From positions 1-52,466 of IMG/VR virus record IMGVR_UViG_3300037042_001548: a DNA stretch of 52,466 nucleotides. The stretch is one strand, 5' to 3'. This document shows positions 21,060-45,559 of this stretch, piece after piece; the first letter of the stretch is position 1, and every line of letters begins with the position of its first letter. The notes under the pieces were generated by a model. The model saw nothing but the letters and a program-made list of their open reading frames with translations, ran no database searches and was not told the DNA's origin. Origin of the DNA: a virus. The position numbers and the translations under genes are program-made.

Positions 21060-21259
21060 TTGATGAGTGTAGGTCTAGTAAGTTGCTGTGGCTGGTCAGG
21101 CGCGATGCTTTCAGCACCTCGTGCCATTTGTGCTCTAAAAGCTGCCCATTTGCGTTGCTGCACTGGATCCTCCGACGGAGGCGTCCAATTGTACAGCTTA
21201 CGCCACCGAATGGTGATGTCCGTTGTTGCAGGGGTGTAGACAAATTCTTCTGTGCTCAC
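21044..21259 (-). CDS. Hypothetical protein, 71 aa, GTG start
   Basis: The GTG start is supported by a strong AAAAGGAG seven bases upstream and by a 4-base GTGA overlap with the preceding gene. The protein begins MSTEEFVYTPATTDITI and is rich in Trp, Pro and Arg (WRKLYNWTPPSEDPVQQRKW). It overlaps the gene downstream. Function unknown. Confidence 0.6.
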   Translation of the reverse strand: MSTEEFVYTPATTDITIRWRKLYNWTPPSEDPVQQRKWAAFRAQMARGAESIAPDQPQQLTRPTLIKWKTP

Positions 21260-21978
21260 AGCTCAGCTCCTTTTGTGTTAAACCACATCCTCAGTGTTGA
21301 CATGCCGCCGTCGATTAGCACATGCTGCGGCAAGATTTTGTACTTGTTGTACACAGCATGGGAAATAAAGTTCTTCATCAACAGATAGGCGTGTGCCTCG
21401 CCCATGTCAAGATGCCTTGCGGCTTCATTGCCTATAAACCGCAACACAAACTTGTCACCAAACTCACGCTGCATAAGCTGTTCTTGATCTGGCAAAAGCC
21501 CAATGATGGTCACATGTGGTTTTCGAACGCCTGCGCCTTCATAGGTGGGGTTGTGCTTTTCAAGTTTGAACGTATGTTCCAACTCTTTGACTTCACGCTT
21601 AACAGCTTGAACCAAGGTAGCAGCAATCCTTGCTGCAATTGCCTCTACCATTGCATCCAGGCTTATCACTGGTGGTGGTTCTGATGGCGCTGGAGGCACT
21701 GGATCTACAACCGTAGGGGTTACTACCTCTTTTTGCCCCAAAGGCTTCTGCGCCAGGCTCTTTATATACGCAGGGTACGCATCTTGCATATGCCTAAGCT
21801 CAACCGTAGCTGACGAGTGCGTTGTAAACGCACGATGCCGCTCTTTAGGAAGCTCCTGAGTTTGCGCAGTACGCAACGCAGCCAACTGCGATTGCATGCC
21901 ACCGCTGTGGTACAGCGCAAGCGCTTTTTGCAAAACGGCATTGCGTTCGCTAGTTGTCCAATGGATACGTGTGATCAT
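21256..21978 (-). CDS. Early protein with C-terminal DUF2325-like domain, 240 aa
   Basis: Start chosen at the ATG following the GAAAGGTACCACACC leader; longer readings run into the promoter leader. Residues 1-60 are helical (MITRIHWTTSERNAVLQKAL). A Pro-rich linker follows near residue 100 (PVPPAPSEPPPV), then a helix, then an alpha/beta domain of about residues 155-240 with VTIIGLLPDQEQLMQREFG and HAYLLMKNFISHAVYNKYK. This last part resembles the DUF2325-type fold by its strand-helix pattern and the late isolated SH, but the match is weak. First gene of a three-gene unit with its own promoter cassette. Confidence 0.55.
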   Translation of the reverse strand: MITRIHWTTSERNAVLQKALALYHSGGMQSQLAALRTAQTQELPKERHRAFTTHSSATVELRHMQDAYPAYIKSLAQKPLGQKEVVTPTVVDPVPPAPSEPPPVISLDAMVEAIAARIAATLVQAVKREVKELEHTFKLEKHNPTYEGAGVRKPHVTIIGLLPDQEQLMQREFGDKFVLRFIGNEAARHLDMGEAHAYLLMKNFISHAVYNKYKILPQHVLIDGGMSTLRMWFNTKGAEL

Positions 21979-22033
21979 GGTGTGGTACCTTTCAAAAGTC
22001 AAAAAAGTGTGGGCTAGCCACACGTGAATTATA
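21979..22033 (-). promoter_or_regulatory. Promoter-leader cassette A for the 21978-20724 unit
   Basis: On the minus strand: the -10 box TATAAT at 22033-22028 (context GATGTATAATTCACG), overlapping the stop codon of the upstream gene; a 6-bp stem GTGTGG/CCACAC at 22023-22007; six T at 22006-22001; then the element TTTGACTTTTGAAAGGTA at 22003-21986, whose GAAAGG serves as ribosome binding site. No convincing -35 hexamer is seen. Near-identical cassettes precede other leftward units. Confidence 0.65.
22001..22023 (-). terminator. Possible attenuator inside cassette A
   Basis: A hairpin with 6-bp stem and 5-base loop followed directly by six T residues has the form of a short intrinsic terminator, yet it lies only a few bases past the -10 box and before the gene. 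The 5' arm GTGTGG can also pair with CCACACC just before the start codon, giving two exclusive folds. Attenuation is inferred. Confidence 0.4.
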
Positions 22034-22811
22034 CATCCAAAAGCCAACAGGAGAAGGCATGTTTGTCGTCAATGCATTTCGTACTCAAGAGTTGAGCCTC
22101 ATGCGTTGTGATGTATGGCGGTCTATCTGCCACTGGCAGGTAGGAATTGGTTGATAGGATCTTATTGAACATCTCCATGCGCGACTCGTAGACATGAAAA
22201 GAGCCTGCGGAGACGGTCAGCGTACCCATTTGAACAATCAAGAGTGCCGCAACGATCTCATGCAAAAACGAGAATGTTGGCAAGTCATTTGCCATACCCC
22301 ACAGAATGTCTTGACTTCGCATGATGGCGCGCATGTTAAGCTTGCCATCCCTAAGCCTAAACTCAATGGCCAAGGTACAAGGCACATCCTTGGCCTCGGG
22401 GTCCATATGGTCTACGTCGGAGCCGTACATGGGGATCACCGCACGACGGGACATGGGGTCTTGCTTTAAGATGTGGTGTATGAACCCTACACCGTGGGGG
22501 CCAAACCAATAGCTACCGTAGTTGCTATTGAGCTTGCCATTGAGCACGATCTTGCCCCACTGCGCTGCGTGCGCGGCAATAGATAGGTCATGCGGATCGG
22601 CTTTGATGTACCAAGCCATTTCGCGCTTTAGGTACTTCAGATTGAAGTTGCGGCCTTCGAAAGAGTTGAACCTCACACCGGGGTCACATACGTATGAAAA
22701 GTTCTCAATTTCAAGACACTCAGCACCGCGTGGGCTGGCCCACTTACCCATCGTGGATAGCCCACGGTACAGGTTGATTAGCTCTTCCTCGGTTCTAATT
22801 CGCATTTCCAT
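22029..22811 (-). CDS. Thymidylate-synthase-family enzyme, predicted dCMP hydroxymethylase or dCMP methylase, 260 aa
   Basis: The catalytic residues of the ThyA fold are in register with E. coli thymidylate synthase at an offset of one: RR at 122-123, catalytic Cys145 in DVPCT, RSQD at 165-168, His206 and Tyr208 in SFHVY; Glu64 is the likely catalytic acid. At the position of E. coli Asn177, which selects dUMP, this protein has Asp176 (WGMANDLPTF). In T4 dCMP hydroxymethylase the equivalent residue is Asp179 and it gives dCMP specificity. I therefore predict a C5-modified dCMP product. The start is the ATG with TGAGG seven bases upstream; it overlaps the upstream kinase gene by 17 bases. The next two genes upstream belong to the same probable modification set. 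Confidence 0.8.
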   Translation of the reverse strand: MEMRIRTEEELINLYRGLSTMGKWASPRGAECLEIENFSYVCDPGVRFNSFEGRNFNLKYLKREMAWYIKADPHDLSIAAHAAQWGKIVLNGKLNSNYGSYWFGPHGVGFIHHILKQDPMSRRAVIPMYGSDVDHMDPEAKDVPCTLAIEFRLRDGKLNMRAIMRSQDILWGMANDLPTFSFLHEIVAALLIVQMGTLTVSAGSFHVYESRMEMFNKILSTNSYLPVADRPPYITTHEAQLLSTKCIDDKHAFSCWLLDV

Positions 22812-23730
22812 AGTCAGCCTCAGTGATGTGGTAGGGTTGGTTGGGAAAATTTTGCATGTGGTACAACGGCGGCGGTAATTTGTAAGCACGCACCTCGTTG
22901 TTCAACGCCCATGTGTACGCGTTGTTGCCTAACGCAAAGATTTTGCTAGGCTTTAGCGCGGCAATAAACGCCGGTGATGTAGGCGTACCTTGATACGTTT
23001 GTGTGTTAGCCCAGTACAGCTGCGTTTCAGCAATGCCTTCGCGCTCAAGTGTATCCGCCAGCATACGACTAGGGCCGTCGTTATCCTGGAAGTTGATGAA
23101 AGGCACAACGGCTGCGGAGGGCCGCACATTTGCACGTGGGCCTTTATCGCAAAGCATCAAGATGTTGCCTTCACGAAAACAGCCGCCTCCAGAATGTTTG
23201 TTTGTGTATGACTTATCATTCAGCTGCTGAAGAAGTTCGCTGAGTGTCCCAGAAGTGTAATCATATTGGATTACTGGTAGGCATGTACGCTGCGGCAGCT
23301 GCTCGTACTCATCATAGACCTGTTTTAGCTGCCCGATGGTGTCAAGGTACTCATCATCAATGCGCGACATGAACGTCTTTGCGCAAACTTCAAAGTCAGG
23401 TTGGCATTGCACAACAACGGCGCCGCGGGACAAGGCCACCCGTTCAAGCATGCGCCGCCTTGGCATATCAACGCGATTTTCGCCTTTACGATATACGCTG
23501 CCGTAAATAGGCTCAGACAGCCATGACCTATCCATGATGACGTGGTCATCGTAGGTTAGGGCCTGCGACATAGAGCGAAAAAAGATTTTGCAAAGATCCT
23601 CACTTTGTACGCCTTTGTATGGGCCGTGCTTGATGACATGCGTCATGCCGTTGCTTTGCAACTGCGCACGCAATGTCTCAGCTAGCGTCGTTTTACCGCC
23701 GCCATCTGGCCCCTCAAGAATGATGATCAT
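22795..23730 (-). CDS. P-loop (deoxy)nucleotide kinase fused to a UDG-superfamily-like domain, 311 aa
   Basis: Residues 1-170 are a nucleotide kinase: Walker A GPDGGGKT at 7-14, DRSW at 67-70 in the place of the DR motif of thymidylate kinases, and a lid-like RKGENRVDMPRRR. Residues about 185-300 look like a uracil-DNA-glycosylase-type domain: ILMLCDKGPRA strand, PF near 211, LYWANTQ at 238-244, and LKPSKIFALGNNAYTWAL at 259-276. I see no clear catalytic UDG motif. The kinase would phosphorylate the modified dCMP; the second domain could bind or process modified bases. It overlaps its neighbours by 4 and 17 bases, so the three genes are co-translated. The kinase call is firm, the UDG-like call moderate. 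Confidence 0.75.
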   Translation of the reverse strand: MIIILEGPDGGGKTTLAETLRAQLQSNGMTHVIKHGPYKGVQSEDLCKIFFRSMSQALTYDDHVIMDRSWLSEPIYGSVYRKGENRVDMPRRRMLERVALSRGAVVVQCQPDFEVCAKTFMSRIDDEYLDTIGQLKQVYDEYEQLPQRTCLPVIQYDYTSGTLSELLQQLNDKSYTNKHSGGGCFREGNILMLCDKGPRANVRPSAAVVPFINFQDNDGPSRMLADTLEREGIAETQLYWANTQTYQGTPTSPAFIAALKPSKIFALGNNAYTWALNNEVRAYKLPPPLYHMQNFPNQPYHITEADYGNAN

Positions 23731-24617
23731 TTAAGAATGCTTTCAAGTTTTGCAAGTGTTTCAGGCCTAGTTGCGGTTTTTAAGCTGGTGATTTGCTGCC
23801 CAACCAATTGTTGGTGCTGCTCATCGTTCATGGCCTCAATCTCATGCAGTGTATGACTATACGCAGGGCCAATCATTCCAAGCTCTTTAGGATCTCCGCC
23901 AAGGATTGCCCCGGTGTGTGCAGCGTGCAGGTAACGGACTCGCCACCATCCGCAACCCGCATGGGCATAAGTCGGACAAAGAACGCCTTTGTAGCTCCCG
24001 TACTCCCAGACAACGTCACTTTCAAGGATGCGTGGCTGTCCGAGTGCCTTTCCACCAACGCTATAAATTGGCCACGATAGATTTTGTTGGCTTGCCCACT
24101 CATGTGCCTCCCTCGATAGCGACGCGTTGTACCACTCAGCTTTTCTGTAACGCCACGCAAAATGATGGCAACCTGGAGACTCGTACAAAGGCGACGGATC
24201 CCACGTGTGGATGACATCAACCGGCAAGCCCATTAGCTTAGGGTCACCCCATGGGAACAACGGGGCCAGCCATACATGCTGTTGCAAATCAGCCGCAGGA
24301 ATAACATGCTCCCATGAAGGCAGAATCTTCTGGAAGGCCCAATCATCCAAGCTAATAATAGCATCCATACGCTCTTGCAAAACCCTTTTGGGGCCTTCTG
24401 GATGCACAGCATTGTTGTCCAATGGGTACATGTAGAGGAACACCTTGTCAAACTTTGACAGGTCAGTGTCCTCACGCACATAGTCATGTGTTACCTCATG
24501 CCCAAGGGCCTTAAAGCCTTCGCGCATAAGCTCGGGGATTGACACAAACTTTGTAGAGCTTGCGCGCCTGGGGTTGTTGTTATGCGTCTCAGTGACGCCG
24601 GTAATGAGGATCTTCAT
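23727..24617 (-). CDS. Glycosyltransferase-like (GT-B fold) protein, 296 aa
   Basis: The N-terminus is Rossmann-like (MKILITGVTETHNNNPRR, then a helix and GHEVTHDYV). The C-terminal half has VVWEYGSYKGVLCPTYAHAG followed by GWWRVRYLHAAHTGAIL and GDPKELG, which resembles the nucleotide-sugar side of GT-B enzymes seen in phage genomes. There is no transmembrane segment. It overlaps the kinase-UDG gene by 4 bases (ATGA) and the upstream small gene by 4 bases, placing it in one operon with the dCMP-modifying enzyme. A DNA-base glycosyltransferase acting on 5-hydroxymethylcytosine is the attractive reading; a different nucleotide-handling role is possible. Confidence 0.5.
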   Translation of the reverse strand: MKILITGVTETHNNNPRRASSTKFVSIPELMREGFKALGHEVTHDYVREDTDLSKFDKVFLYMYPLDNNAVHPEGPKRVLQERMDAIISLDDWAFQKILPSWEHVIPAADLQQHVWLAPLFPWGDPKLMGLPVDVIHTWDPSPLYESPGCHHFAWRYRKAEWYNASLSREAHEWASQQNLSWPIYSVGGKALGQPRILESDVVWEYGSYKGVLCPTYAHAGCGWWRVRYLHAAHTGAILGGDPKELGMIGPAYSHTLHEIEAMNDEQHQQLVGQQITSLKTATRPETLAKLESILK

Positions 24618-24884: not shown

Positions 24885-26282
24885 TCAAACATCAACAGAG
24901 GCCATTGTATCACGATGGACGTAATCACGCACTGCATCAAGCAATTTTTGCTGCGTCTTGTCTTTGCGTTTTACCGCTTGCAGGATAGCCTCGTCAACGG
25001 TGTCTTTTGCAATGATGTGATGCACCACAATATGGTTCTTTTGCCCTTGCCGCCACAGCCTACGAATAAACTGCTCGTAGATTTCAAGACTCCAAGTCAG
25101 AGAATACCAGATCACTGCGTGGCCTGCGCCTTGCAAATTAAGGCCATGGCCTGCAGACATCGGGTGGGCAAGCAACACCGGTATTTCGCCTGCGTTCCAC
25201 GCGTTGATGATTGCGTCTAGCTTAGCGCCAATTACGCCACTACCAATTACAGGCGCGTTTGGAAAGGCAGCTTGCAATCTTTCCAAGTCATGCGCAAAAT
25301 GGTAGCCAATGATGCAAGGCTGCCCGGATAGTTCTTCAACCAGCTCAAGTGCAACCTCAGTTTTTGCGTCATGTAAATGTATGCTGGTCTTTTCCGTGGT
25401 GTTGTCATCCATATCCAAGTAAGACCCACCATTGGCGATTTGCTGGCCTTTCATAACGGCAACGGCAGCGTTGACTGCGGTAACGTTACCTGCAGCCAAC
25501 TCAATGGTCAAGTTATCCTCGAAGGCCTTGTACATTTTGCGTGCGGCTGCAGGTAGTTCTATGTAGACGTTGTTGTATGTTAACTCAGGCAAATCTAGAT
25601 GGTCCAGTGCTGCCATACGCAGCACCTTGCCTTCCAGCTTTTCATGGATTCGCTTTTCACCGTCTTGCTGCAGCTTCCACTCGTACCCGCCATACCCGGA
25701 TGGGTAGAAGTACTCTTGCCTAAAGCGGGATACAAACTGCCCAAACGTGGCACCTTGATCAACGATCAGCTGCGGGCCAAAGATGTCCAATAAGCTATTA
25801 GGCGCAGGGGAGCCTGTTAGGCCCCAACGGCGATCAAACTTATTCAGCAACGGCTTAATGCATTTGAACCGCTGTGTTTGCGTGTTCTTCATGTAGCTGA
25901 TTTCATCTACCGTAAGGATTTGAAAAGGCCATGGCTTGCCATTAAGCTGCGATGACAGCCACTGCAAGCCTTCAAAGTTGATTACGTAAATGTCGTGGTT
26001 TTGCTTTAAGACCTTGGCCTTATTGCCACCATGCAGCACGCCTATGGAGTAGCCTTCAAACTGCTCCCACTTCTTAGTCTCGGCAGGCCACACGCCATGC
26101 GCAGGCCTAAGCGGCGCAAGCACCAGCATCTTTTGCACAAGGCCTTTAATCTTCAAGGCGCGAAATGCTGCCAACACAATGGCAGTTTTGCCGAGACCTG
26201 GATCAAGCCATAACGCGCCTGACCCCTGTGAGACCAGAAACTTTACGGCTTCCTTTTGATACTCATGCGGTTCCCAAAACAC
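24885..26282 (-). CDS. SNF2-type DNA helicase/translocase, 465 aa, GTG start
   Basis: Superfamily 2 motifs in order: Q-like EPHEYQKEAV near residue 5, Walker A DPGLGKT at 27-33, DEIS at 126-129, TGSPAPN at 156-162, and a C-terminal SAGHGLNLQGA with QFIRRLWRQGQ (motif VI). This is a compact phage SNF2 helicase. The GTG at 26282 has AGGAGG nine bases upstream, while the TTG at 26288 would be only three bases away. It overlaps the VRR-NUC gene by 20 bases. Likely role: remodelling replication or recombination intermediates together with the nuclease genes upstream. Confidence 0.88.
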   Translation of the reverse strand: MFWEPHEYQKEAVKFLVSQGSGALWLDPGLGKTAIVLAAFRALKIKGLVQKMLVLAPLRPAHGVWPAETKKWEQFEGYSIGVLHGGNKAKVLKQNHDIYVINFEGLQWLSSQLNGKPWPFQILTVDEISYMKNTQTQRFKCIKPLLNKFDRRWGLTGSPAPNSLLDIFGPQLIVDQGATFGQFVSRFRQEYFYPSGYGGYEWKLQQDGEKRIHEKLEGKVLRMAALDHLDLPELTYNNVYIELPAAARKMYKAFEDNLTIELAAGNVTAVNAAVAVMKGQQIANGGSYLDMDDNTTEKTSIHLHDAKTEVALELVEELSGQPCIIGYHFAHDLERLQAAFPNAPVIGSGVIGAKLDAIINAWNAGEIPVLLAHPMSAGHGLNLQGAGHAVIWYSLTWSLEIYEQFIRRLWRQGQKNHIVVHHIIAKDTVDEAILQAVKRKDKTQQKLLDAVRDYVHRDTMASVDV

Positions 26283-26556
26283 GATCAATGTCCTCCTTAC
26301 TGTAAGTCACATGCACCTTGTGACCTAGCCGCGCAAGATCAGCATGCACCTTTTCTTGCAAAGCTGATAGCTTACCTCCCGGCCGTTTAAGCTCTACCCA
26401 AAGCACCTCGCCATTTTCAAGAGCAACAATGCGATCAGGCCAACCGCGTGTAAATCGCACATGCAATTTCAATGTCATCAGCTTATGCTTTTTGCATTGC
26501 GCCGAGAAGTACCTTTCCAGGTCGCGTTCAAGCAGTACGCGTGCTACCATTGGCAT
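26263..26556 (-). CDS. VRR-NUC domain nuclease, 97 aa
   Basis: Small single-domain PD-(D/E)XK enzyme: RGWPDRIVAL with Asp41, then VLWVELKRPGG with Glu55 and Lys57, followed by LSALQEKVHADLARLGHKV, the usual VRR-NUC helix and final strand. In phages such nucleases often sit beside SNF2 helicases, as here, and are thought to cut branched DNA. Start taken at the first ATG (MPMVARV); six bases downstream is another. It overlaps the Cas4-like gene by 13 bases. Confidence 0.88.
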   Translation of the reverse strand: MPMVARVLLERDLERYFSAQCKKHKLMTLKLHVRFTRGWPDRIVALENGEVLWVELKRPGGKLSALQEKVHADLARLGHKVHVTYSKEDIDRVLGTA

Positions 26557-27179
26557 GGGCCCCCATTGGATTTGCGAAAGTGGCACCACCGGCAGCCATA
26601 GTCTGGCTTTGGCGCAAAGATGTCGTCGTTTTCAATCTTTTTAATTCTGTCAGTTAGCCATGCTTTCAACACAACCAACTCGGATCGCTTGTACGTGTCA
26701 TGCGGCATGCGCTTGTTGAGGTCTGTGTAGCAAATCTCGGTGGTAACGTAATCAATTTCTGGATTGCATACCATGATGATGGTGGCGTATAGCTTTAGCT
26801 GGTCGCCGTAGTCCCGTTCTTTGCCTGACTTCCAATCCAAAACATGTGCATGCCCATCTTTGTGCCACACAGCGTCATACACGCCGCGCACCCAATACTT
26901 AGGGTCTTTGAAATCACAAGGGACCCAGTCGCGTGTAATGGCAAACTCGGTTTCGCATTGCGTATGCTTTGCAGTAAGTTCTTGTACGTAATCAAGCCAA
27001 AACTTTTGCGTGTCAGGTAGCATGCCTAGGCCCATAATGGCATGCTCAAACTCGCTGTGAATTAGCTTGCCCCGCTCCGCGGCTTCACCTGAAGGCTCTT
27101 TGCGATGCTCAATGCGTGTGAGCTTGTACTTGTAGGGACATTGCTCGTAAGCTTTGATCGATGAATGTGAAAAGCCCAT
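26544..27179 (-). CDS. Cas4/RecB-like PD-(D/E)XK exonuclease with Fe-S cluster motif, 211 aa
   Basis: FSHSSIKAYEQCPYKYKL at the N-terminus is the classic start of the RecB/Cas4 nuclease group. Catalytic residues: His41 (RGKLIH), Asp102 (GVYDAV), Asp115 and Lys117 (LDWKSG). Four cysteines, Cys14, Cys196, Cys199 and Cys209, are placed as in AddB/Cas4 iron-sulphur clusters. It degrades or processes DNA ends, probably for recombination or replication. The upstream small gene overlaps its start by one base (TAATG). Confidence 0.88.
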   Translation of the reverse strand: MGFSHSSIKAYEQCPYKYKLTRIEHRKEPSGEAAERGKLIHSEFEHAIMGLGMLPDTQKFWLDYVQELTAKHTQCETEFAITRDWVPCDFKDPKYWVRGVYDAVWHKDGHAHVLDWKSGKERDYGDQLKLYATIIMVCNPEIDYVTTEICYTDLNKRMPHDTYKRSELVVLKAWLTDRIKKIENDDIFAPKPDYGCRWCHFRKSNGGPCQW

Positions 27180-27468: not shown

Positions 27469-29328
27469 TCATTTGGTTTCCTGATACGTTTCACCGACTT
27501 TGTAATCCGAGACCATAGGCACATCCATGGCCAATGCATTGCACATGCTCCACATTAGTGTTTCTGCCTCGCGCTCAATATGCTCAACCGGCGTTGAGAT
27601 GACCAACTCATCATGCACACTAAGTAGCAATCTACTACCAAGACGGCGCTTTTGATACAGCAGCATAGCGGCCTTGGCCTGATCAGCTGCTGAGCCTTGA
27701 ATTAGCAAGTTGACGCCTTTGTAATCAAACTCCCTAAGGCGGCCGTTGATGATCTTTGGAGGCTCCATCATAACCAACCTACCGCCTAGTGTTTTGATAG
27801 GCTGGCTAAGCTTGTACCGAGTACGCATAACACCTTGCATGGTCTTAAGACCTGGCGCCACCGCTGATGTGTAGGCATCCATCAACGTTTTGGCAAGCTC
27901 ATAGCTAATCTCAAGCATTTCGCTAATCTTTTGCGGCCCTGCGCCATACAAAATGGCAAACGATACGCCTTTGGAGTAGGTACGGGATACTTCCTGGCCG
28001 GCAGCCTCGGACATCAACTTGGCAGCGTAGGTATGCAGATCAGCACGGGCATCCTGCTGGTACTGCTGCATAAGGTTGCCACCTTCAAAGTGCGCAAAGA
28101 TTCGCAGCTCCTGCGCATTGAAATCACATGCTACTAGCTTATGACCTTCATCCGGAAGAATGAAACTACGAATGAGTGGCAATGGGGTTATGTCGAGCTC
28201 TGCGGGGATGATGATTTCGTTTCGTCCCATACTTGCAGTTGCCCCACCGGTAACAATTTTTGGGTAGCGAACAGGCGCATTTTGAAAATTAGGGGTGGAT
28301 GAGAGTCGCCCCGTGCGGGTCCCGCCACGTTCACCTCGTACACTATTCCAGTTCGTGTAGATTCGACCTGTAGATGTAGAAGCTTCCAGCCAGGGCTCAA
28401 TGAAAGTTGACAGGCATGTTGATAGGTTGGCTCTGTAGCGTAGGACACCTTTTAACTCCGTGTGGGTGATGATTTCTTCCAATGTTTCCTTATCCGCCTT
28501 AGGGGATCCTTTGTCCGTAGCGGGCCAGCCATTCTTTTTGTCCCAGTAGTCTGTGGGATAAATACTATCGACCAGCTGCCGATCGCTGTCAACATTCAAC
28601 TCAGGAGACCCAAGCAATGTACGAACCCAAGCATTACACTTTTCAATGTCTATTTGCGCTTGCAATTTTGCTTTTTGCAACCCATCGCGATCAACCCTTA
28701 CGCCTAAACGCGAGTTTTCAAGCAACATGGGGATCAGCGCAATCTCACGTTGATACGGCTCAAACTGCGCCGGCAAAACCAAAGGCTGCAAAAACTCATA
28801 AAGCAAAGAGGTAAGCTTTACATCGGCCTCGGCATAGCGGCCTACCAATTCAACGGGGCCTTTTGAAATGTGCGCGCCCCAGGTAGACTTTTTACGCCTT
28901 GCCTCGTCAACATTGGCAATAACCCAGTCTCGCAATTCATCTCGTTCATTCGGCTCAGCAAGGCTGTAGGTAACCACCAAGTCTTTAAGGGACAAGGACG
29001 GCACATGCGGATTATGCAAGAACGCAAGTATCAGTGTATCGTGCACACGATCAGGCGTAGGCATTGGCAAGCCTAGGTGCGTCTCCGCAACGTCAAGGTC
29101 AAACATTGCGTTGTGAAAGCAGATCTCCCTATCGCTGTCATAGATCAGCTCAAGGATTGTTTGCACCGTACGCTCCGTGGTGTTGTTGCCACTCAAATGG
29201 CCAAAGGCATGGTAACCATTGGGGTACTCACCTTCGGGGTCATAGAGGGCCAATCCGACAGGTCTGGGTGGGTATGCAGGCCGTGGGCCAATGGCCTCTG
29301 TTTCAAAATCAAGGAATACAGGTTTCAT
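27469..29328 (-). CDS. Family A DNA polymerase with 3'-5' exonuclease domain, 619 aa
   Basis: Exonuclease motifs: DFETEA at 7-12, HNAMFD at 72-77, YAEAD at 165-169. Polymerase motifs: TGRLSS at 339-344; motif A D402-F-N-A-Q-E407-L-R; motif B with Lys453, Phe457 and Tyr461 in SKGVSFAILYGAG; motif C VHDE at 571-574. Thus both active sites are intact. Phe457 matches E. coli Phe762, so it should discriminate against dideoxynucleotides. Motif A departs from the usual DYSQIELR. No 5'-nuclease domain, as in T7 polymerase. It is the phage replicase, co-expressed with the SNF2 helicase and nucleases; the upstream zinc-ribbon gene overlaps its start by 4 bases. Confidence 0.96.
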   Translation of the reverse strand: MKPVFLDFETEAIGPRPAYPPRPVGLALYDPEGEYPNGYHAFGHLSGNNTTERTVQTILELIYDSDREICFHNAMFDLDVAETHLGLPMPTPDRVHDTLILAFLHNPHVPSLSLKDLVVTYSLAEPNERDELRDWVIANVDEARRKKSTWGAHISKGPVELVGRYAEADVKLTSLLYEFLQPLVLPAQFEPYQREIALIPMLLENSRLGVRVDRDGLQKAKLQAQIDIEKCNAWVRTLLGSPELNVDSDRQLVDSIYPTDYWDKKNGWPATDKGSPKADKETLEEIITHTELKGVLRYRANLSTCLSTFIEPWLEASTSTGRIYTNWNSVRGERGGTRTGRLSSTPNFQNAPVRYPKIVTGGATASMGRNEIIIPAELDITPLPLIRSFILPDEGHKLVACDFNAQELRIFAHFEGGNLMQQYQQDARADLHTYAAKLMSEAAGQEVSRTYSKGVSFAILYGAGPQKISEMLEISYELAKTLMDAYTSAVAPGLKTMQGVMRTRYKLSQPIKTLGGRLVMMEPPKIINGRLREFDYKGVNLLIQGSAADQAKAAMLLYQKRRLGSRLLLSVHDELVISTPVEHIEREAETLMWSMCNALAMDVPMVSDYKVGETYQETK

Positions 29329-32691: not shown

Positions 32692-32914
32692 CTTCCTTTA
32701 CCTTTCCATTACGGATTGCCTCGGCATTGGCCTGCAACAGGCTACGCCATATGGGATTTTCACATGCCATGGCGTTGCTGTCAACCAGGTTGGCGTCAAG
32801 CTTACGTTGTGCGGCAGCGACAAGGGTGGCGAATTCACGCAGGCATTTGTTTTCGCCATCAAATCCAACAAAACCGGCCTCCCGCGCCATGCGGGTGATG
32901 TCATCCTTAGTCAT
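32678..32914 (-). CDS. Small helical early protein, 78 aa (paralogue of the gene at 30008)
   Basis: Begins MTKDDITRMAREAGFVGF and has CLREFATLVAAAQRKL, paralogous to the 82-residue protein at 30008. Its C-terminal half is different (NPIWRSLLQANAEAIRNGK). The start overlaps the upstream gene by 4 bases, the end overlaps the MazG-like gene by 14. Unknown function. Confidence 0.75.
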   Translation of the reverse strand: MTKDDITRMAREAGFVGFDGENKCLREFATLVAAAQRKLDANLVDSNAMACENPIWRSLLQANAEAIRNGKVKEDDEL

Positions 32915-33420
32915 ACTGTAGCCTCCACAAGGAGGTCTTGGAGCCAGTCAGGCTGCGGGCTACGGCCTTTGTTGTACACCAGCGGCATGGCTGCTGCCTT
33001 GCTGGCGTAGTACTTGCGGTAGGACTCGATGTGATCGGCGGACTTGTACTCGTCGGGCATTGCCAATGTAGGTGGCGTCCACCGCAACGGCAAGTCCATC
33101 ATTTCAGGAGGGGCATACATAAGCTCGCGGAACCACACGCCGCGGGACTTATGGTCATGGCCATAGCGCCAGAAAAACTGGCGGCCGAGACCGCTAGCCA
33201 AATCGCTAACCCACTGATAGTTGAGACGGGACTGACGGACCCAGACGGCTGAAGGGTGATTGGCATGTGTGGGGCGGTACGACACTTTGTGGCCGTTGCC
33301 GAAGTGATGGTGCGCAGTGGCCAGAAGCTGGCAGGACTCGATAAGCATTTTGCCGACATGCTTGTCGCAGTGGTACTGCGCGGCAATCAACGGCAGCTGA
33401 TGGAGATAGAAGATGTTCAT
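32911..33420 (-). CDS. Conserved-type phage protein of unknown function, 169 aa
   Basis: Begins MNIFYLHQLPLIAAQYHCDK and has HVGKMLIESCQLLATAHHHF, RPTHANHPSAVWVRQS and HDHKSRGVWFREL. I have seen this His-rich pattern in many phage genomes, where it carries no function; the CDKH and HxNHP motifs could form a metal site. The ATG at 33420 follows GAAAGGTACGACACC; the reading that starts further upstream covers the leader. First gene of the unit driven by cassette B. Confidence 0.7.
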   Translation of the reverse strand: MNIFYLHQLPLIAAQYHCDKHVGKMLIESCQLLATAHHHFGNGHKVSYRPTHANHPSAVWVRQSRLNYQWVSDLASGLGRQFFWRYGHDHKSRGVWFRELMYAPPEMMDLPLRWTPPTLAMPDEYKSADHIESYRKYYASKAAAMPLVYNKGRSPQPDWLQDLLVEATV

Positions 33421-33501
33421 GGTGTCGTACCTTTCAAAGATCAAAGACTAGTGGGACAAGTTGCAGCAGCCGAGTGAGTGACTGCTGCTGAGGCGATTAT
33501 A
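33421..33501 (-). promoter_or_regulatory. Promoter-leader cassette B for the 33420-31138 unit
   Basis: On the minus strand: -10 box TATAAT at 33501-33496 (context AGTGTATAATCGCC), directly after the stop codon of the previous gene; a 7-bp hairpin CAGCAGC/GCTGCTG (33490-33484 with 33470-33464); then TTTGATCTTTGAAAGGTA at 33445-33428, whose GAAAGG is the ribosome binding site. No clear -35. Confidence 0.65.
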
Positions 33502-39545: not shown

Positions 39546-39598
39546 AGCCGTATAATGCGTAGGCAATCTCGCGCTTGCGAGACTTAAGAGGGTCAAGC
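39546..39598 (+). promoter_or_regulatory. Promoter-leader cassette F of the polyvalent gene
   Basis: -10 TATAAT at 39551-39556 (context GCCGTATAATGCG), a 6-bp hairpin TCTCGC/GCGAGA at 39567-39582, and AGAGGG as ribosome binding site at 39587-39592. The box begins five bases after the terL stop. Same box-hairpin order as the leftward cassettes, but without the TTTGAC element. Confidence 0.6.
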
Positions 39599-42500
39599 AT
39601 GCCTCCTGAGAATTTAGTTGATTACACCGCAAGCCCTGAAGAGCCAAGTCTCGATGCGATGCGATACGCGCTAACCCAGCGCAACGCCACACCCAATCAG
39701 CAACAACGTCCATTGGACGGCATTACTGACACCTTCAAGCGGTTGGCAGCGGAGTTCAACCCGTTGATGATGGGTCGCACTCTGCAGGACGCGCCTAAGG
39801 TTATGTACAACGCCGTTGCCGCGCCGGTTGCAGGCACTTGGGCAGGCGCATTGCGTAACGTACAAGCCGCGGGCGCAGCTCAAGCTTACGGTGCGCTGGG
39901 TATGCCGCAGGAAGCTGCAGCAGCGCAAAGCCGCGTGCAACCCGTAAAGCCGCAAGACGCGCAGCTGCAATTGCGCTCAAACGCAGGACAGCAAACGCAA
40001 CAAGCGCTGGGCGAGGCGTTTAACGCCTTGCAGTTGCCGCCTGTAGGCCCAGGCTCGGGCATGCCAGGCTCCGCGCCTGTGAGCCCAAGGCCTATACTCA
40101 CACCAAATGATGTCCGCGTCATGGGAGCAAGGGCTACGCACGCTGTGCGCGAAGCCGGGCAGATCCCAACTGACATTGCCAATGTGCGTAATGCAGGCAT
40201 TCAGCGAATGAGCCCGTTGACGGGGCAGCCTTCGGTGGGTAGCCGAATGGGTACCGCAATTGAAGGCACGTCGCAGGCTGCCGGGCGCGTAGGCGATGTG
40301 GCTCGTGATGTAGGGCAATCCACGGCTGACTACATGCAAATGCGGCGTGATATGGGCTTAAGCCCCGTGCCAGGTGTGCCGCCTGAGTTCTTCCCTGATT
40401 TGCGCATGTACGCAATGCGGCCTAAAGACTCAACGCTTGTTACGCCGTCGGTGCCGCCTACAAAAGATGTGACCGCGTTGGATATAGGCACCGCGCCGCA
40501 GACCGCAATTCATGACATAGGTGCGCATAAACCTGAGTTGCGCACGTCAGACGCGTTGGCATATCTGGCAGGCATGGACTTGGACATCCCACGCACTGAC
40601 GCACAAGGCATTGCGACTATCACAAGCGAGCGGCAAGCTGCGTTTAATGCATTCATAGCGGCACAAGCGAACGCGCTATACCCTGACGCACCCAATTCTC
40701 GCGAGGCCGTACTTGCAATGGATGACCGCTTTTCGCGGCAAGCTGATAAGGACGCAGCTCGTATAAAGCTATACGATGAGTTTCGTGAATCGCCGGAAGG
40801 CCAAGCCGTTGACATGGGCGACTTGCCGTCGTCAACGGAGTTGCAAGAGCGCCACGTTGCGGCGTCGCAATGGCTTAACTCTACGCTTTTGAATTACGCC
40901 AAGCGTAAGTTCGGCGCCGAAGGCGACCCCTTGGTGCAACAGGCATCGCAAGGGTTCACCATGCTGCCGGCCGAGGACGTGCGCCGCATGTCAGAAAGCG
41001 TCAATGAGGACGTCTTAAAGCGACGCAGAGCTCAGGCAGGCATGCCTGTTGCAGGCACCCTTGCACCGGCCATTCGAGATAAGTCAGTTGAGCTGGCTGA
41101 CGCCACTGCAGCGGTGGAGCAGCTGCAACAACGCCGTGAAGAGTATCGCAACGTTGCAATGCAGCAAGGTTTGCCTGATCCGGCGCAATTGCCTGAGTAC
41201 GCCGCAACTACAAACCCGTTGAGCGCGGCTGTTGCTAAACGCGATAAGCTGCAAGATGAATTAAGCAATCTGCAACTTGGTCGTGATTACGAAAAGCTAT
41301 CAGACATCGCCGTAGCGGTTGACACGCAACCTAATTTACTAGGCAAAATTGAGTATCCGCAGCAGCAGTTTTACCCGTCGGTTACGCGTGCACGACCTGA
41401 TGAGACGCTATTTCACGTTTCTAGAAATAATGCTCTGCAAAGCACAGGCTTCAATGAATTGGCAGCGCAGTTTTATGACGACGTAATTCGTGGCAATATT
41501 CCAATTGACAAGTTGAAGGGCTTAACCGTTGAGAAGTACGTGCGTGGTAAATCTGAAAGCCGAGTTGCTGAGGAAAAGCGCCAAGTACAAGCAACGGCGG
41601 CGCTAAAAACCAATATCGAATCGCGAATGCAGGAGGACATGGCGCTATACGTCAAGCCTGAGAATTACTTTGGCAACGTTGGCGTCTTGGAGCTTAGCAC
41701 AAGCACGGGCTTTCACATTGACGAAATTCGCAGGTTGATCAGCGATGACACATTGGTGCTGGATCACTGCGTTGCTGAAGGCCCCACGCCTGGTAGTAAG
41801 GCAAAGAACCTTTGGAACGGCAGGGAGCGTAGGTATATGCCGTTGGTTGACCCTGCAACAGGTCAATTGCTACCTAACTCATCGCGTACGTATACGCGGT
41901 ACATTCGCGAGGCTGGCGACCCAGACGCAAATCAGGCAGGTATGTTGGCCAGTGTCCGTGATAAAGCCACAGGCTTGCCTGTCGCAACCATTGAGTTTGC
42001 GCACGCCTCAAATGGCAAGTACCGTATTGGTTACGCATCAGGCTATCAAAACGGCCACGTTAAAAAGGCGTACCATGATGCCATCAAGGAGTACTTGAAT
42101 TCTCGTGCCGACGTAATTAACGGTAGTGGTGGTGATCTTCCAAATGTGGGGCTTATTGATCTGCATAGCACAGAGGCAGTTGGTGAACTGCAACGCATAC
42201 TGGGCGTGCCTCGGCGCGATGCTGAGGCATTGCTAGATGACGCACTCACAAATGGCGGATTACCGCGGTTTGGTACAAGCGACGATCTGCGGCAAATTTT
42301 TGCAAAGCCACAACCTGCGCCTGTAGCTCAGCAGCATGCCGCGCGGCAACCTAACACGCAGCAACCTGTAACGGTTACTGCATTAAACGATTTCGTGGCT
42401 TTTATGCGGCGAGAAGTAGGCGTTGACGCAGCTGCCACAATTTCACATATACTACAAGAAGCACGACAAAGCTTTCCTGGCGCGCCTGATTACATGGTGC

Positions 42501-45500
42501 TATTGAGTGAGCAGCCTACAGCGTTTGCAGAGCGCATTGCTGAGCTTGCGCAGGAACAAGGTAATGCGCTTGTTGCGCAATTTGGAACTGCTTTTGCCAA
42601 TCGCATTGCGCCGCCTGTAGCGCAACAGCCTGCCGCTGCGCAACCTGCGGCTCGGCAACCTGCCGCGCAGCAAACCGTAACGGCCAATGATCTGTACAAT
42701 TACTTACGAGATGTTGCGCAAGCTTACGGCCGTGACGAAGGCGACGCAATGATGCATGTAGTAAGGCAAGTGCGACAATCATTTGGTGGCGCACCATATG
42801 AAGATCTACTGCGTGAGCATCCTACCGCGTTTGCAGAGCGCATTGCAGAGTTTGCGCAGGAACAAGGCAACGCAATTGTTGAGCAAGAATTGCTGGCTTT
42901 GGCTGATCGCATCGCCCCGCCTGTGCCACCTGCAGCGCAGCTAAACCCCCTAGCCGCTTGGCCTCTTGCGCAACCCGAAGCGCAACAGCCTGCAGTACAA
43001 GGCCGAGGCGCAGGCACTGTGTTGATACCAAGGACACGATTGGCAATTGACGACGCATTTGAGCTTGCTGAGCGTGGCTTACAAGGTGATGATGAGGCCA
43101 CACGTAGGTTTGCGGCTTTTGAAAGTGACGTGCGCAATGCGTATTTGCAGCCTAACGCGACAATGAATGACCTACGTTTATTGCGTCAGCGCATGGCTAA
43201 TGCTATCGACTTTTATGAGCGTGTCAGTGTCAACCCGGTACAGGAAGTTGCTGACGTAATACGTAATGATTTGCTGCCTGCGATAGACGCCTTGATTGCG
43301 CCGCCTGTAGCTCAGCAACCTGCAGCGCCGCAGCAGCCCGCGCTTGGCTTGTTTGAAGAATTTGCCATAGCGCGAGATTTGCTTGAAAACGCGCGTCTTG
43401 ATAACCAAACGTTTGACACGGGCGATTTAGGCACTACGCTGTTTGTACTTGAGAATGGCAACTTTGATGACCCGCGATTTAGAGCTTTAGGCCCACAAAG
43501 CGCGGCGGCACAGCGTGAAGTTGCAGCGGCACTTCGTCAGATGATGCAAGAAGCAGGCATACTAACGCCTGGTTCTCAGCAGATTGCCTACCCAGGCCCG
43601 CCTGTTGACAATCAACCTACGCCTCAGCAGCAAGCTATCATCAACGACATTCGTGCGGCTGATTTAGCCGACATTGTCAACTTTATCGAACCTAATAGAT
43701 GGCCTTTGATTACTGCGCGTGCAGATCGCGCGGCAGCAGGGGTATTGGACAATTGGCCGGCTGATTGGCAGGATGTACACTTAGCAGACGCAGCCCAAAC
43801 GACTGAAGCCATTCGCAATGGGCAAATGCCTGACATTACAGATGGGCTTGATGTTATTGAGCGAGAACTTGTTGCTCGTGAAGTGCAGCAACGCATTGAT
43901 GACCTCGCGGGTAGACAAAGACCTATTGCAGCGCAACCCGCTGCTCAGCAATTTGACAACACGCCTTTTGACGACGCGCTGATAAGCTTTGACGCGGGGT
44001 TGACAGACATTGCCATGGACGTTGGCTGGCCTGGAGCCATCGCTGAGATTGACCGTATACTGGACGACTTAGCGCATGGTGCAGGTTCTATTTATGGGTT
44101 GTGGGAAGGCGATGAGCCACTTACTGATCGCACGCGTGAGTACTTGGCAACGCGGCTTCGCGAGCTTCGTCAAGAATACGAGATACGTGCGGCGGACGCG
44201 GAAAGGGAGGCAGATTTAGGCGATTGGGAGCCGGACGACGACCATCCTGCTAACCGCCCAACGCGACAGCGCCCATTTCCACCTGGTGGCGCAGCAGCTA
44301 CACGCGGTGTGCCTTTTGGCAATTTGAATATTCAACCCGCCACAACTGCTGCAATGCTTAGAGGCGCAGACACGCAGCCATTACGTAACTTTATTCAGCA
44401 ATTTCGCGCATTGCCTGGCGTAACTCGTGAAGGCGCGCAAACGGCATTGCTAGGTCTTGAGCGCATGGACCCTACACGGCGTGTGACCAAAGCTGAGTTT
44501 ATTCGCGAGTTGGTGCCGTCAAACTATGACGTCGTTGATTTGAAAGGCACTGCTACACGCGATGAGCACTTGTGGCAAACCCTTGATGATGAGCTTGAGT
44601 ACGCAGAAGTAGGTGAGCATTTTGCAAGCTTACATGGGCTTAGCCCTTCAAGGTATGGCGCAATGCTAGGCGAAAACGTGTATGATGACTTGTCTGCAAG
44701 CGTAAAGCGTTTACTTGCCAGCAAAGGCATAACTGATGAGATTGAGTTTGATAGCGCAATGCTTAAAGCGCGAGAAGAGTTGCTGCAAGAACAATACACT
44801 GATGCTAGAGAATACGTTGCCGATATGGGCGGAGGTGGTGATCTTGAAGGTTACGCGTATTCAGACACACAACGATTGATTAGTGATGACTCACATGGCG
44901 TATACGGCGAATTTGGTGTTACGCACCCTGAGCAGCAAGGTACGTACACACACTATGATGCCGCGCCTGAGGGCATGATAGGTCATTTTCGTGGAACGTC
45001 AGTTAGCGCTACGCCGCTTGTAATCAACGTGCATACTGGCTCAAGCGCGCGTACTAAGTTTAAGACAAAGCCTAATAGCTACGTCATCGAAGAAATACAA
45101 TCTGACGCACAAAAAGGCGCGTCACAAACTGCGCAGTTGCATCAGGTGCACGGCCTTATTTTTAAGGCGGCAGTCCAAAAAGCATTGGAGTCAGGCGCAA
45201 CAACAGTGTATATGCCTACTGCAGCTGTCATTGCTAAAGCACGAGGTGAGAATGCTACAAGTTTTGCGCCTATTTACGATCAAGCTGTTGTCAAAGAAGG
45301 TCTTAAGCCACTGCTTAAGCTTCAGGGTGTGTCATCAACAATGGTTAATGGCTACCATGAAATTAGCTTTACGCCTGAGGCAATAGAGCACATTTTGCGT
45401 GGGCCAGGGCAAACTATTCCAGGCTACAATGCGGGTGGCGCTGTACGCAAGTCAGCGTATGACAGCACTTTTGCGCTGAAATACGCAAATGGTGGTACAG

Positions 45501-45559
45501 TACCACAAACTCAAAGCTTGGATGCTATGAAATACGAACTTATGATGCGGAGTAAATGA
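39599..45559 (+). CDS. Giant polyvalent (LPD-type) phage protein, 1986 aa
   Basis: The motif PSLDAMRYALTQRN at residues 16-29 is mirrored by QSLDAMKYELMMRSK at the C-terminus (1972-1986). Residues about 680-900 contain a PcfJ/LPD-like segment (LISDDTLVLDHCVAEG, RRYMPLVDPATGQLLP, YTRYIREAGD). Two tandem units of about 100 residues follow (from about 923 and 1024; shared HPTAFAERIAEFAQEQGNA-type core). Near the end is the conserved signature of large polyvalent proteins: GMIGHFRGTS, then EEIQSD at 1831-1836. It ends with two NAGG/ANGG motifs. Such proteins are carried in the virion or injected and counter host defences; here this is inferred. The ATG has AGAGGG upstream; an in-frame TTG at 39575 is inside the leader. 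Confidence 0.75.
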   Translation: MPPENLVDYTASPEEPSLDAMRYALTQRNATPNQQQRPLDGITDTFKRLAAEFNPLMMGRTLQDAPKVMYNAVAAPVAGTWAGALRNVQAAGAAQAYGALGMPQEAAAAQSRVQPVKPQDAQLQLRSNAGQQTQQALGEAFNALQLPPVGPGSGMPGSAPVSPRPILTPNDVRVMGARATHAVREAGQIPTDIANVRNAGIQRMSPLTGQPSVGSRMGTAIEGTSQAAGRVGDVARDVGQSTADYMQMRRDMGLSPVPGVPPEFFPDLRMYAMRPKDSTLVTPSVPPTKDVTALDIGTAPQTAIHDIGAHKPELRTSDALAYLAGMDLDIPRTDAQGIATITSERQAAFNAFIAAQANALYPDAPNSREAVLAMDDRFSRQADKDAARIKLYDEFRESPEGQAVDMGDLPSSTELQERHVAASQWLNSTLLNYAKRKFGAEGDPLVQQASQGFTMLPAEDVRRMSESVNEDVLKRRRAQAGMPVAGTLAPAIRDKSVELADATAAVEQLQQRREEYRNVAMQQGLPDPAQLPEYAATTNPLSAAVAKRDKLQDELSNLQLGRDYEKLSDIAVAVDTQPNLLGKIEYPQQQFYPSVTRARPDETLFHVSRNNALQSTGFNELAAQFYDDVIRGNIPIDKLKGLTVEKYVRGKSESRVAEEKRQVQATAALKTNIESRMQEDMALYVKPENYFGNVGVLELSTSTGFHIDEIRRLISDDTLVLDHCVAEGPTPGSKAKNLWNGRERRYMPLVDPATGQLLPNSSRTYTRYIREAGDPDANQAGMLASVRDKATGLPVATIEFAHASNGKYRIGYASGYQNGHVKKAYHDAIKEYLNSRADVINGSGGDLPNVGLIDLHSTEAVGELQRILGVPRRDAEALLDDALTNGGLPRFGTSDDLRQIFAKPQPAPVAQQHAARQPNTQQPVTVTALNDFVAFMRREVGVDAAATISHILQEARQSFPGAPDYMVLLSEQPTAFAERIAELAQEQGNALVAQFGTAFANRIAPPVAQQPAAAQPAARQPAAQQTVTANDLYNYLRDVAQAYGRDEGDAMMHVVRQVRQSFGGAPYEDLLREHPTAFAERIAEFAQEQGNAIVEQELLALADRIAPPVPPAAQLNPLAAWPLAQPEAQQPAVQGRGAGTVLIPRTRLAIDDAFELAERGLQGDDEATRRFAAFESDVRNAYLQPNATMNDLRLLRQRMANAIDFYERVSVNPVQEVADVIRNDLLPAIDALIAPPVAQQPAAPQQPALGLFEEFAIARDLLENARLDNQTFDTGDLGTTLFVLENGNFDDPRFRALGPQSAAAQREVAAALRQMMQEAGILTPGSQQIAYPGPPVDNQPTPQQQAIINDIRAADLADIVNFIEPNRWPLITARADRAAAGVLDNWPADWQDVHLADAAQTTEAIRNGQMPDITDGLDVIERELVAREVQQRIDDLAGRQRPIAAQPAAQQFDNTPFDDALISFDAGLTDIAMDVGWPGAIAEIDRILDDLAHGAGSIYGLWEGDEPLTDRTREYLATRLRELRQEYEIRAADAEREADLGDWEPDDDHPANRPTRQRPFPPGGAAATRGVPFGNLNIQPATTAAMLRGADTQPLRNFIQQFRALPGVTREGAQTALLGLERMDPTRRVTKAEFIRELVPSNYDVVDLKGTATRDEHLWQTLDDELEYAEVGEHFASLHGLSPSRYGAMLGENVYDDLSASVKRLLASKGITDEIEFDSAMLKAREELLQEQYTDAREYVADMGGGGDLEGYAYSDTQRLISDDSHGVYGEFGVTHPEQQGTYTHYDAAPEGMIGHFRGTSVSATPLVINVHTGSSARTKFKTKPNSYVIEEIQSDAQKGASQTAQLHQVHGLIFKAAVQKALESGATTVYMPTAAVIAKARGENATSFAPIYDQAVVKEGLKPLLKLQGVSSTMVNGYHEISFTPEAIEHILRGPGQTIPGYNAGGAVRKSAYDSTFALKYANGGTVPQTQSLDAMKYELMMRSK

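Follow-up and report, generated by a model that had tools for sequence, protein, structure and literature searches.

The closest described counterparts of the locus analysed here are pathways in which a homologue of thymidylate synthase (TS) modifies a cytosine nucleotide. In phage T4, the specificity of the deoxycytidine monophosphate (dCMP) hydroxymethylase gp42 for cytosine is set by Asp179, and mutation showed that Ser94, Tyr96 and Asp145 are needed for full activity (PMC6400193). Among TS genes, positions 177 and 147 were the top two discriminators of those from contigs with modified cytosine, in which TS, PRA-PH (MazG) and carbamoyltransferase domains co-occur; the 5cmdC enzyme of the same work is of the NodU-type carbamoyltransferase class (PMC8670742). 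For MilA, Ala/Lys at the sugar-selecting positions go with ribonucleotides and Ser/Arg with deoxyribonucleotides (PMC5175136). Here we describe an operon of the virus record IMGVR_UViG_3300037042_001548, a whole IMG/VR record of 52,466 bases (the window) from an uncultured virus of bacteria. The operon encodes a TS-superfamily enzyme (P0001), a two-domain kinase protein (P0002) and a glycosyltransferase (P0003), and we consider it probable that it replaces deoxycytidine by glycosylated 5-hydroxymethylcytosine (hmC) in the phage DNA by a T4-like route.

As in T4, a TS homologue with the residues that were tested by mutation in gp42 is encoded next to a glycosyltransferase, whose predicted fold is nearest that of T4 beta-glucosyltransferase, tied with SenB. 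An earlier note on this DNA had drawn a parallel between the gene set and the T4 pathway, and the conservation of the unit together with this fold agrees with it. In contrast to T4, the genes form a compact, overlapping three-gene operon in a smaller phage that is unrelated to T4 and has a PolA-type polymerase, P0003 has no recognisable sequence relation to the T4 glycosyltransferases, and the kinase is fused to a domain resembling uracil-DNA glycosylase (UDG). A further difference from T4 is that searches of the window and of 28 related records, several of these fragmentary, turned up no dCMP deaminase.

Active-site residues of the TS homologue

P0001 matched PF00303 with 62.5 bits (cut-off 24.3). 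Its best sequence match in the PDB was MilA (E 2.5e-14); other good matches include the thymidylate synthase 6auj (5.8e-13) and T4 dCMP hydroxymethylase (4.1e-12), with TS entries of the 1jg0 type weaker (2e-10). The earlier note had placed Asp176 opposite Asn177 of E. coli ThyA, as in the T4 enzyme. The alignment bears this out, since Asp176 is in register with both ThyA Asn177 and the Asp of gp42 (T4 179), and the catalytic Cys145, the pair Arg122/Arg123 and the RSxD and HxY motifs are in register too, as had also been claimed. Moreover, Thr146 occupies the position of E. coli His147 and Met164 that of Gln165. The combination Asp177/Thr147/Met165 (E. coli numbering) is common to P0001 and gp42, and recurs in the twelve other named phage enzymes that were aligned, with SPO1 gp29 as the one exception. 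At the same positions ThyA has Asn/His/Gln, and SPO1 gp29, which hydroxymethylates deoxyuridine monophosphate (dUMP), has Asn/Asn/Asn.

The family search matched 112 open reading frames (ORFs), of which 110 passed the length filter and 57 were distinct. The catalytic Cys and the Thr, Met and Asp were invariant in all 57 distinct full-length members, none of which carried the E. coli-type Asn; because it holds in 57 of 57 sequences, this pattern is not a matter of chance. In support of a hydroxymethylase, T4 Ser94, Tyr96, Asp145, Cys148 and Asp179 are all identical in P0001. At the deoxyribose-selecting positions (Ser169/Arg123), P0001 has Ser166 and Arg122. It thus resembles MilA, the CMP (cytidine monophosphate) hydroxymethylase of mildiomycin, in the Asp at the base-selecting position and differs from it in being of the Ser/Arg, deoxy type, where MilA has Ala/Lys and prefers CMP. 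MilA-like specificity for CMP was ruled out by these sugar-selecting residues, and an ordinary thymidylate synthase by Asp177/Thr147/Met165. The C-terminal stretch of P0001 fails to align with the tail of E. coli TS that closes over folate. In a tree that carries long-branch warnings, the P0001 family and the Xp15/Acinetobacter enzymes, with Effie, form sister groups (98/87), and T4 gp42 comes next (97/81). Every sequence test agrees in supporting P0001 as a dCMP-type and not a dUMP-type enzyme, and by sequence it has the tested features of a dCMP hydroxymethylase.

Two annotated relatives carry the same Asp177/Thr147 signature: AXL3 gp28, named thymidylate synthase (L121, 8935-9744), and the PW916 protein named deoxyuridylate hydroxymethyltransferase (L122, 3280-4098). 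Judged by these residues, both annotations are probably wrong and both enzymes of the cytosine type.

The kinase protein and the glycosyltransferase

Residues 1-177 of P0002 form a P-loop nucleotide monophosphate kinase with the fold of thymidine monophosphate (TMP) kinase and YorR and the motif GPDGGGKT. The predicted fold of residues 1-176 aligned with TMP kinase at Z 14.6 (root-mean-square deviation, rmsd, 3.1; 167 residues) and with YorR at Z 14.2, in a comparison that covered TMP kinases and YorR rather than T4 gp1. Fold searches with the whole protein were filled by kinases, so that the reported match covers the kinase part. The kinase of the earlier note is upheld by this fold; the UDG-like domain that it had attached to the kinase was reached only indirectly.

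This second domain (residues ~178-311) is a divergent UDG-superfamily-like domain. With E values of up to 10 allowed, PF03167 gave weak matches in 17 of 28 members of the kinase family, the best of them at 0.0016, P0002 itself scored 13.8 bits, below the cut-off of 24.3, and a PF03167 search of the virus record at E up to 10 gave no match. When profiles were compared, the domain reached a probability of 1.6% with 17 bacterial UDGs (those of 21 recovered sequences that bear the motif used for trimming), no better than 16 controls (maximum 2.7%). The corresponding domains of AXL3, PW916, ctUtU524 and DSL-LC01 reached 93% with the UDG profile, and the P0002-family domain reached 95% with these AXL3-type domains. 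A direct assignment of the P0002 domain to UDG was dropped, as the direct comparison stayed at control level, and the transitive link was kept: through the AXL3-type domains it is probably UDG-derived. A profile search of the PDB with the domain gave one weak, unrelated match, and a PHROG scan weak, unnamed matches only. The conserved motif of the UDG superfamily is HP(S/Q). HPQ is kept in the domains of AXL3, PW916, ctUtU524 and DSL-LC01, and P0002 and its family have PPPL instead; because of this replacement, the domain probably lacks uracil glycosylase activity. Most likely it is a non-canonical domain that binds bases or nucleotides, possibly without catalysis, and it is better not listed among the uracil glycosylases. 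The kinases of Xp15, MD-2021a, Sixama and GMA2 are without it.

The model of P0003 shows a complete GT-B fold (pLDDT 85.8), which upholds the description of this protein in the earlier note as glycosyltransferase-like. Structural alignment with VIA-align ranked T4 beta-glucosyltransferase first (Z 17.5, rmsd 3.9, 279 aligned residues), tied with the selenosugar synthase SenB (Z 16.9), and gave T4 alpha-glucosyltransferase a Z of 15.2. No Pfam match was obtained, and a PDB search with a 29-sequence profile came back empty up to E 10. Modelling makes P0003 a GT-B enzyme of this structural neighbourhood, not a DNA glycosyltransferase by fold alone; membership of the latter class is predicted from fold plus linkage, DNA being its predicted target because the gene is linked to those of the TS homologue and the kinase.

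Relatives of P0003 are common in viruses (in 512 of 579 pattern stretches of viral_contigs, 80 of them listed) and very rare in a one-per-species set of bacterial genomes, where a pattern-limited scan gave one distant relative (26%) in 159 stretches. As regards distant homologues, four of the five phage records searched also encode a TS of the Asp177 type, Erwinia phage FBB1 having an Asn-type one in addition, and a sixth record, GMA2, has an Asp177-type TS as well. In DSL-LC01 (L127, 9992-12128) and FBB1 (L189, 4937-7062) the homologue adjoins a gene for UDP-galactopyranose mutase (UDP, uridine diphosphate), hinting at furanose sugars in these two phages. The window contains no match to this mutase (PF03275), and the simplest guess for the sugar donor is UDP-glucose of the host. 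Searches of the literature for the structure of the HY126 glycosyltransferase and, within a limited search that supports no claim of absence from print, for TS, UDG, kinase and glycosyltransferase combined, returned no paper.

Taken together with the residues, these folds suggest an order of events that would run from synthesis of hydroxymethyl-dCMP (hm-dCMP) by P0001 through phosphorylation and incorporation to glycosylation of hmC in DNA. The P0002 kinase domain, judging by its fold, would raise hm-dCMP to the diphosphate; the host nucleoside diphosphate kinase would then make the triphosphate, hm-dCTP, which the PolA-type polymerase of the phage would incorporate. A conserved MazG-type enzyme of the window (P0004) would deplete unmodified deoxycytidine triphosphate (dCTP) and may supply dCMP. 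Finally, the GT-B enzyme, as its fold and linkage suggest, would take a sugar from a nucleotide-sugar of the host, which may be UDP-glucose, and attach it to the hydroxymethyl group in DNA.

Conservation and layout of the module

The order of the genes is maintained among relatives. In loci that were found through the TS homologue alone, the kinase gene lay immediately upstream in 32 of 32 and the glycosyltransferase gene before it in 31 of 32; the contig of the single exception (L011) has just 494 bases upstream. Each of 24 longer records, which include the window and were picked among the loci that these genes had led to, and so partly by selection, had exactly one TS, one glycosyltransferase and at least one MazG match. 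Purifying selection acts on each of the three genes, with ratios of nonsynonymous to synonymous change (dN/dS) of 0.018-0.133 in 8 of 12 pairs, the other 4 being saturated at synonymous sites. The earlier note had suggested that the MazG-like enzyme could play the role of T4 gp56. The assignment to MazG stands, with its recurrence in all 24 records, and it is possible that P0004 is a dCTPase that removes unmodified dCTP, a role that stays predicted.

Xp15 and Acinetobacter phage MD-2021a have the named TS homologues closest to P0001 (37-38% identity), with MazG and a small kinase beside them. Unlike the present operon, their modules and that of Effie, whose gene is annotated hypothetical, have a NodU-type carbamoyltransferase in place of the glycosyltransferase. 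Also unlike it, the kinases of Xp15 and MD-2021a are single-domain, and Xp15 has an annotated dCMP deaminase and MD-2021a a pyrimidine deaminase. AXL3, PW916 and ctUtU524 share with it a kinase carrying the same C-terminal domain beside an Asp177-type TS, an adjacent MazG gene and a related DNA polymerase. They differ in having a dCMP deaminase, a UDG-like domain that keeps HPQ and no glycosyltransferase homologue among the 18 records matched, and in the neighbouring genes, which are a methyltransferase gene beside MazG in AXL3 and PW916 and a gene annotated 'capping protein' in ctUtU524. In Xp15, MD-2021a, AXL3, PW916 and ctUtU524 alike, MazG lies beside or near the kinase or TS gene.

The three overlapping genes reported in the earlier note were found where it had put them, 22029-24617, at the 3' end of a minus-strand replication block that plus-strand genes of structural type flank on both sides (Table 1). 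They run head to tail from glycosyltransferase to kinase to TS, the TS and kinase genes overlapping by 17 nucleotides and the kinase and glycosyltransferase genes by 4. The ATG at 22811 was preferred over the upstream GTG at 22889 as the start of the TS gene because relatives align from that Met.

Table 1. Features of the window discussed in the text
Feature	Position	Strand	Basis or remark
P0001, TS-superfamily enzyme, cytosine type, predicted dCMP 5-hydroxymethylase, 260 aa	22029-22811	-	PF00303, residues
P0002, two-domain kinase protein, 311 aa	22795-23730	-	fold, profile comparisons
P0003, GT-B glycosyltransferase, predicted DNA hmC glycosyltransferase, 296 aa	23727-24617	-	predicted fold
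P0004, MazG/PRA-PH-type nucleoside triphosphate pyrophosphohydrolase, 138 aa	32275-32691	-	PF01503, 61 bits
PolA-type DNA polymerase	27469-29328	-	replication block
SNF2-type helicase	24885-26288	-	replication block
240-aa gene	21256-21978	-	no Pfam or PHROG match
Two small genes	26263-27179	-	by eye, VRR-NUC nuclease-like and RecB/Cas4-like nuclease
Protein matching phrog_624, 'DNA binding protein'	32911-33444	-	176 bits
1994-aa ORF	39575-45559	+	no PHROG match at E 0.001

The 240-aa gene lies directly downstream of the TS gene, and 27 of 32 loci have a homologue of it next to the TS gene. It is a possible fourth member of the module. The 1994-aa ORF adjoins the terminase gene. The named phages closest by DNA polymerase are ctUtU524, PW916 and AXL3 (35-38% identity). 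By terminase, the closest is MW202545 (63%), then GB2A, RLK and other phages of Caulobacter (47%), which are thereby weakly indicated.

Weighing the readings and their meaning

Several readings of the operon compete with the preferred one. That P0001 is an ordinary thymidylate synthase which supplies dTMP together with a TMP kinase, next to an unrelated glycosyltransferase, is scarcely credible: annotation habit favours it, AXL3 gp28 and gp29 being called thymidylate synthase and kinase, and so does the nearness of the P0002 kinase domain to TMP kinases, but the residue pattern of all 57 family members speaks against it, and so does the fact that no dCMP deaminase, as a source of dUMP, turned up in the records searched. 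We hold it very improbable that P0001 is a dCMP methylase of the Xp12 type and that the DNA carries 5-methylcytosine. Asp177 by itself fixes the base and not the last chemical step, and TS mutants with Asp for Asn177 yield 5-methyl-dCMP, as cited in PMC8670742; however, the residues on which hydroxymethylation in T4 depends are kept in P0001 (a comparison made without the Xp12 enzyme sequence), and a conserved glycosyltransferase would find no hydroxyl acceptor on 5-methylcytosine. A synthase of 5-hydroxy-dCMP, with the sugar attached directly to the C5 oxygen, seems improbable as well. It would match the arabinosyl-hydroxycytosine pathway of the RB69 type, which likewise combines a TS homologue with a glycosyltransferase; such synthases belong to phages whose DNA is sugar-modified and are homologous to TS (PMC13390438), and the mutase genes of DSL-LC01 and FBB1 would fit it. 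No such mutase was found in the window with PF03275, however, and RB69 ORF048c, presumed from that paper and the note of its record to be the synthase, has Thr, Glu, Asn and Phe at T4 positions 94, 145, 171 and 218, four residues that may define the family, where P0001 keeps the Ser, Asp, Asp and Tyr of T4.

A further reading accepts the cytosine step but gives the glycosyltransferase a substrate other than DNA (RNA, protein or the host envelope), which would leave plain hmC in the DNA. GT-B folds are common to many enzymes that do not act on DNA, SenB ties with T4 beta-glucosyltransferase, and P0003 matches no DNA glycosyltransferase in sequence. We nevertheless think it unlikely, given that the gene sits in the replication block, overlapping the kinase gene, and is found with the TS gene in nearly all loci, and that its distant homologues mostly co-occur with Asp177-type TS genes.

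Glycosylated hmC is supported by the residues of P0001, the fold of P0003 and the conserved linkage, and the proposal of the earlier note that the phage DNA may carry modified, perhaps glycosylated, cytosine is in this sense sustained, as a prediction. Several observations pull the other way. The reading rests on gene order, conservation, residues and folds, its activities are predicted and the virus is uncultured. P0001 is just 26-27% identical to AXL3 gp28 and T4 gp42 (27% for the latter), and Foldseek alone put SenB first for P0003, with T4 beta-glucosyltransferase not among the top 50 matches. The MazG gene lies ~8 kb from the operon, the genome of phage C48C1, which encodes a distant glycosyltransferase homologue, gave no TS match, and no nucleotide-sugar partner gene was found in the window, where PF03275 alone was searched. 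The restriction phenotype of AXL3 counts in favour, within limits. Of 37 restriction enzymes, 2 cut its DNA, and the sites of these two consist of A/T only; the authors proposed that gp28 makes dTMP (PMC7504290), whereas its residues point to dCMP. With gp28 of the Asp177 type and gp29 a full-length P0002 homologue, this resistance favours the cytosine step; because AXL3 has no glycosyltransferase homologue among the 18 records matched, it speaks to that step alone, and it could also be explained by modified G.

A bolder combination is doubtful, if conceivable: the UDG-fold domain would read modified cytosine nucleotides and gate the kinase (or destroy unmodified ones), only the hydroxymethylated nucleotide being passed on, and P0003 would be the first of a new family of enzymes that glycosylate DNA, its sugar being one not yet known from phage cytosine.

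On the preferred reading, replacement of deoxycytidine by glycosylated hmC, a T4-like pathway would be compacted into an operon in uncultured phages outside the T4 group, bringing with it a glycosyltransferase that Pfam misses and a kinase joined to a domain that resembles a glycosylase. The comparison with Xp15 and MD-2021a (carbamoyltransferase) and AXL3 (methyltransferase gene) suggests, from these few named phages, a shared core of cytosine-type TS, kinase and MazG with an exchangeable last enzyme, here the glycosyltransferase. The T4-like route would be a way of disguising DNA from bacterial defences. Finally, the annotations of AXL3 gp28 and of the PW916 enzyme would be corrected, and the chemistry of many phages annotated with a 'thymidylate synthase' becomes testable.

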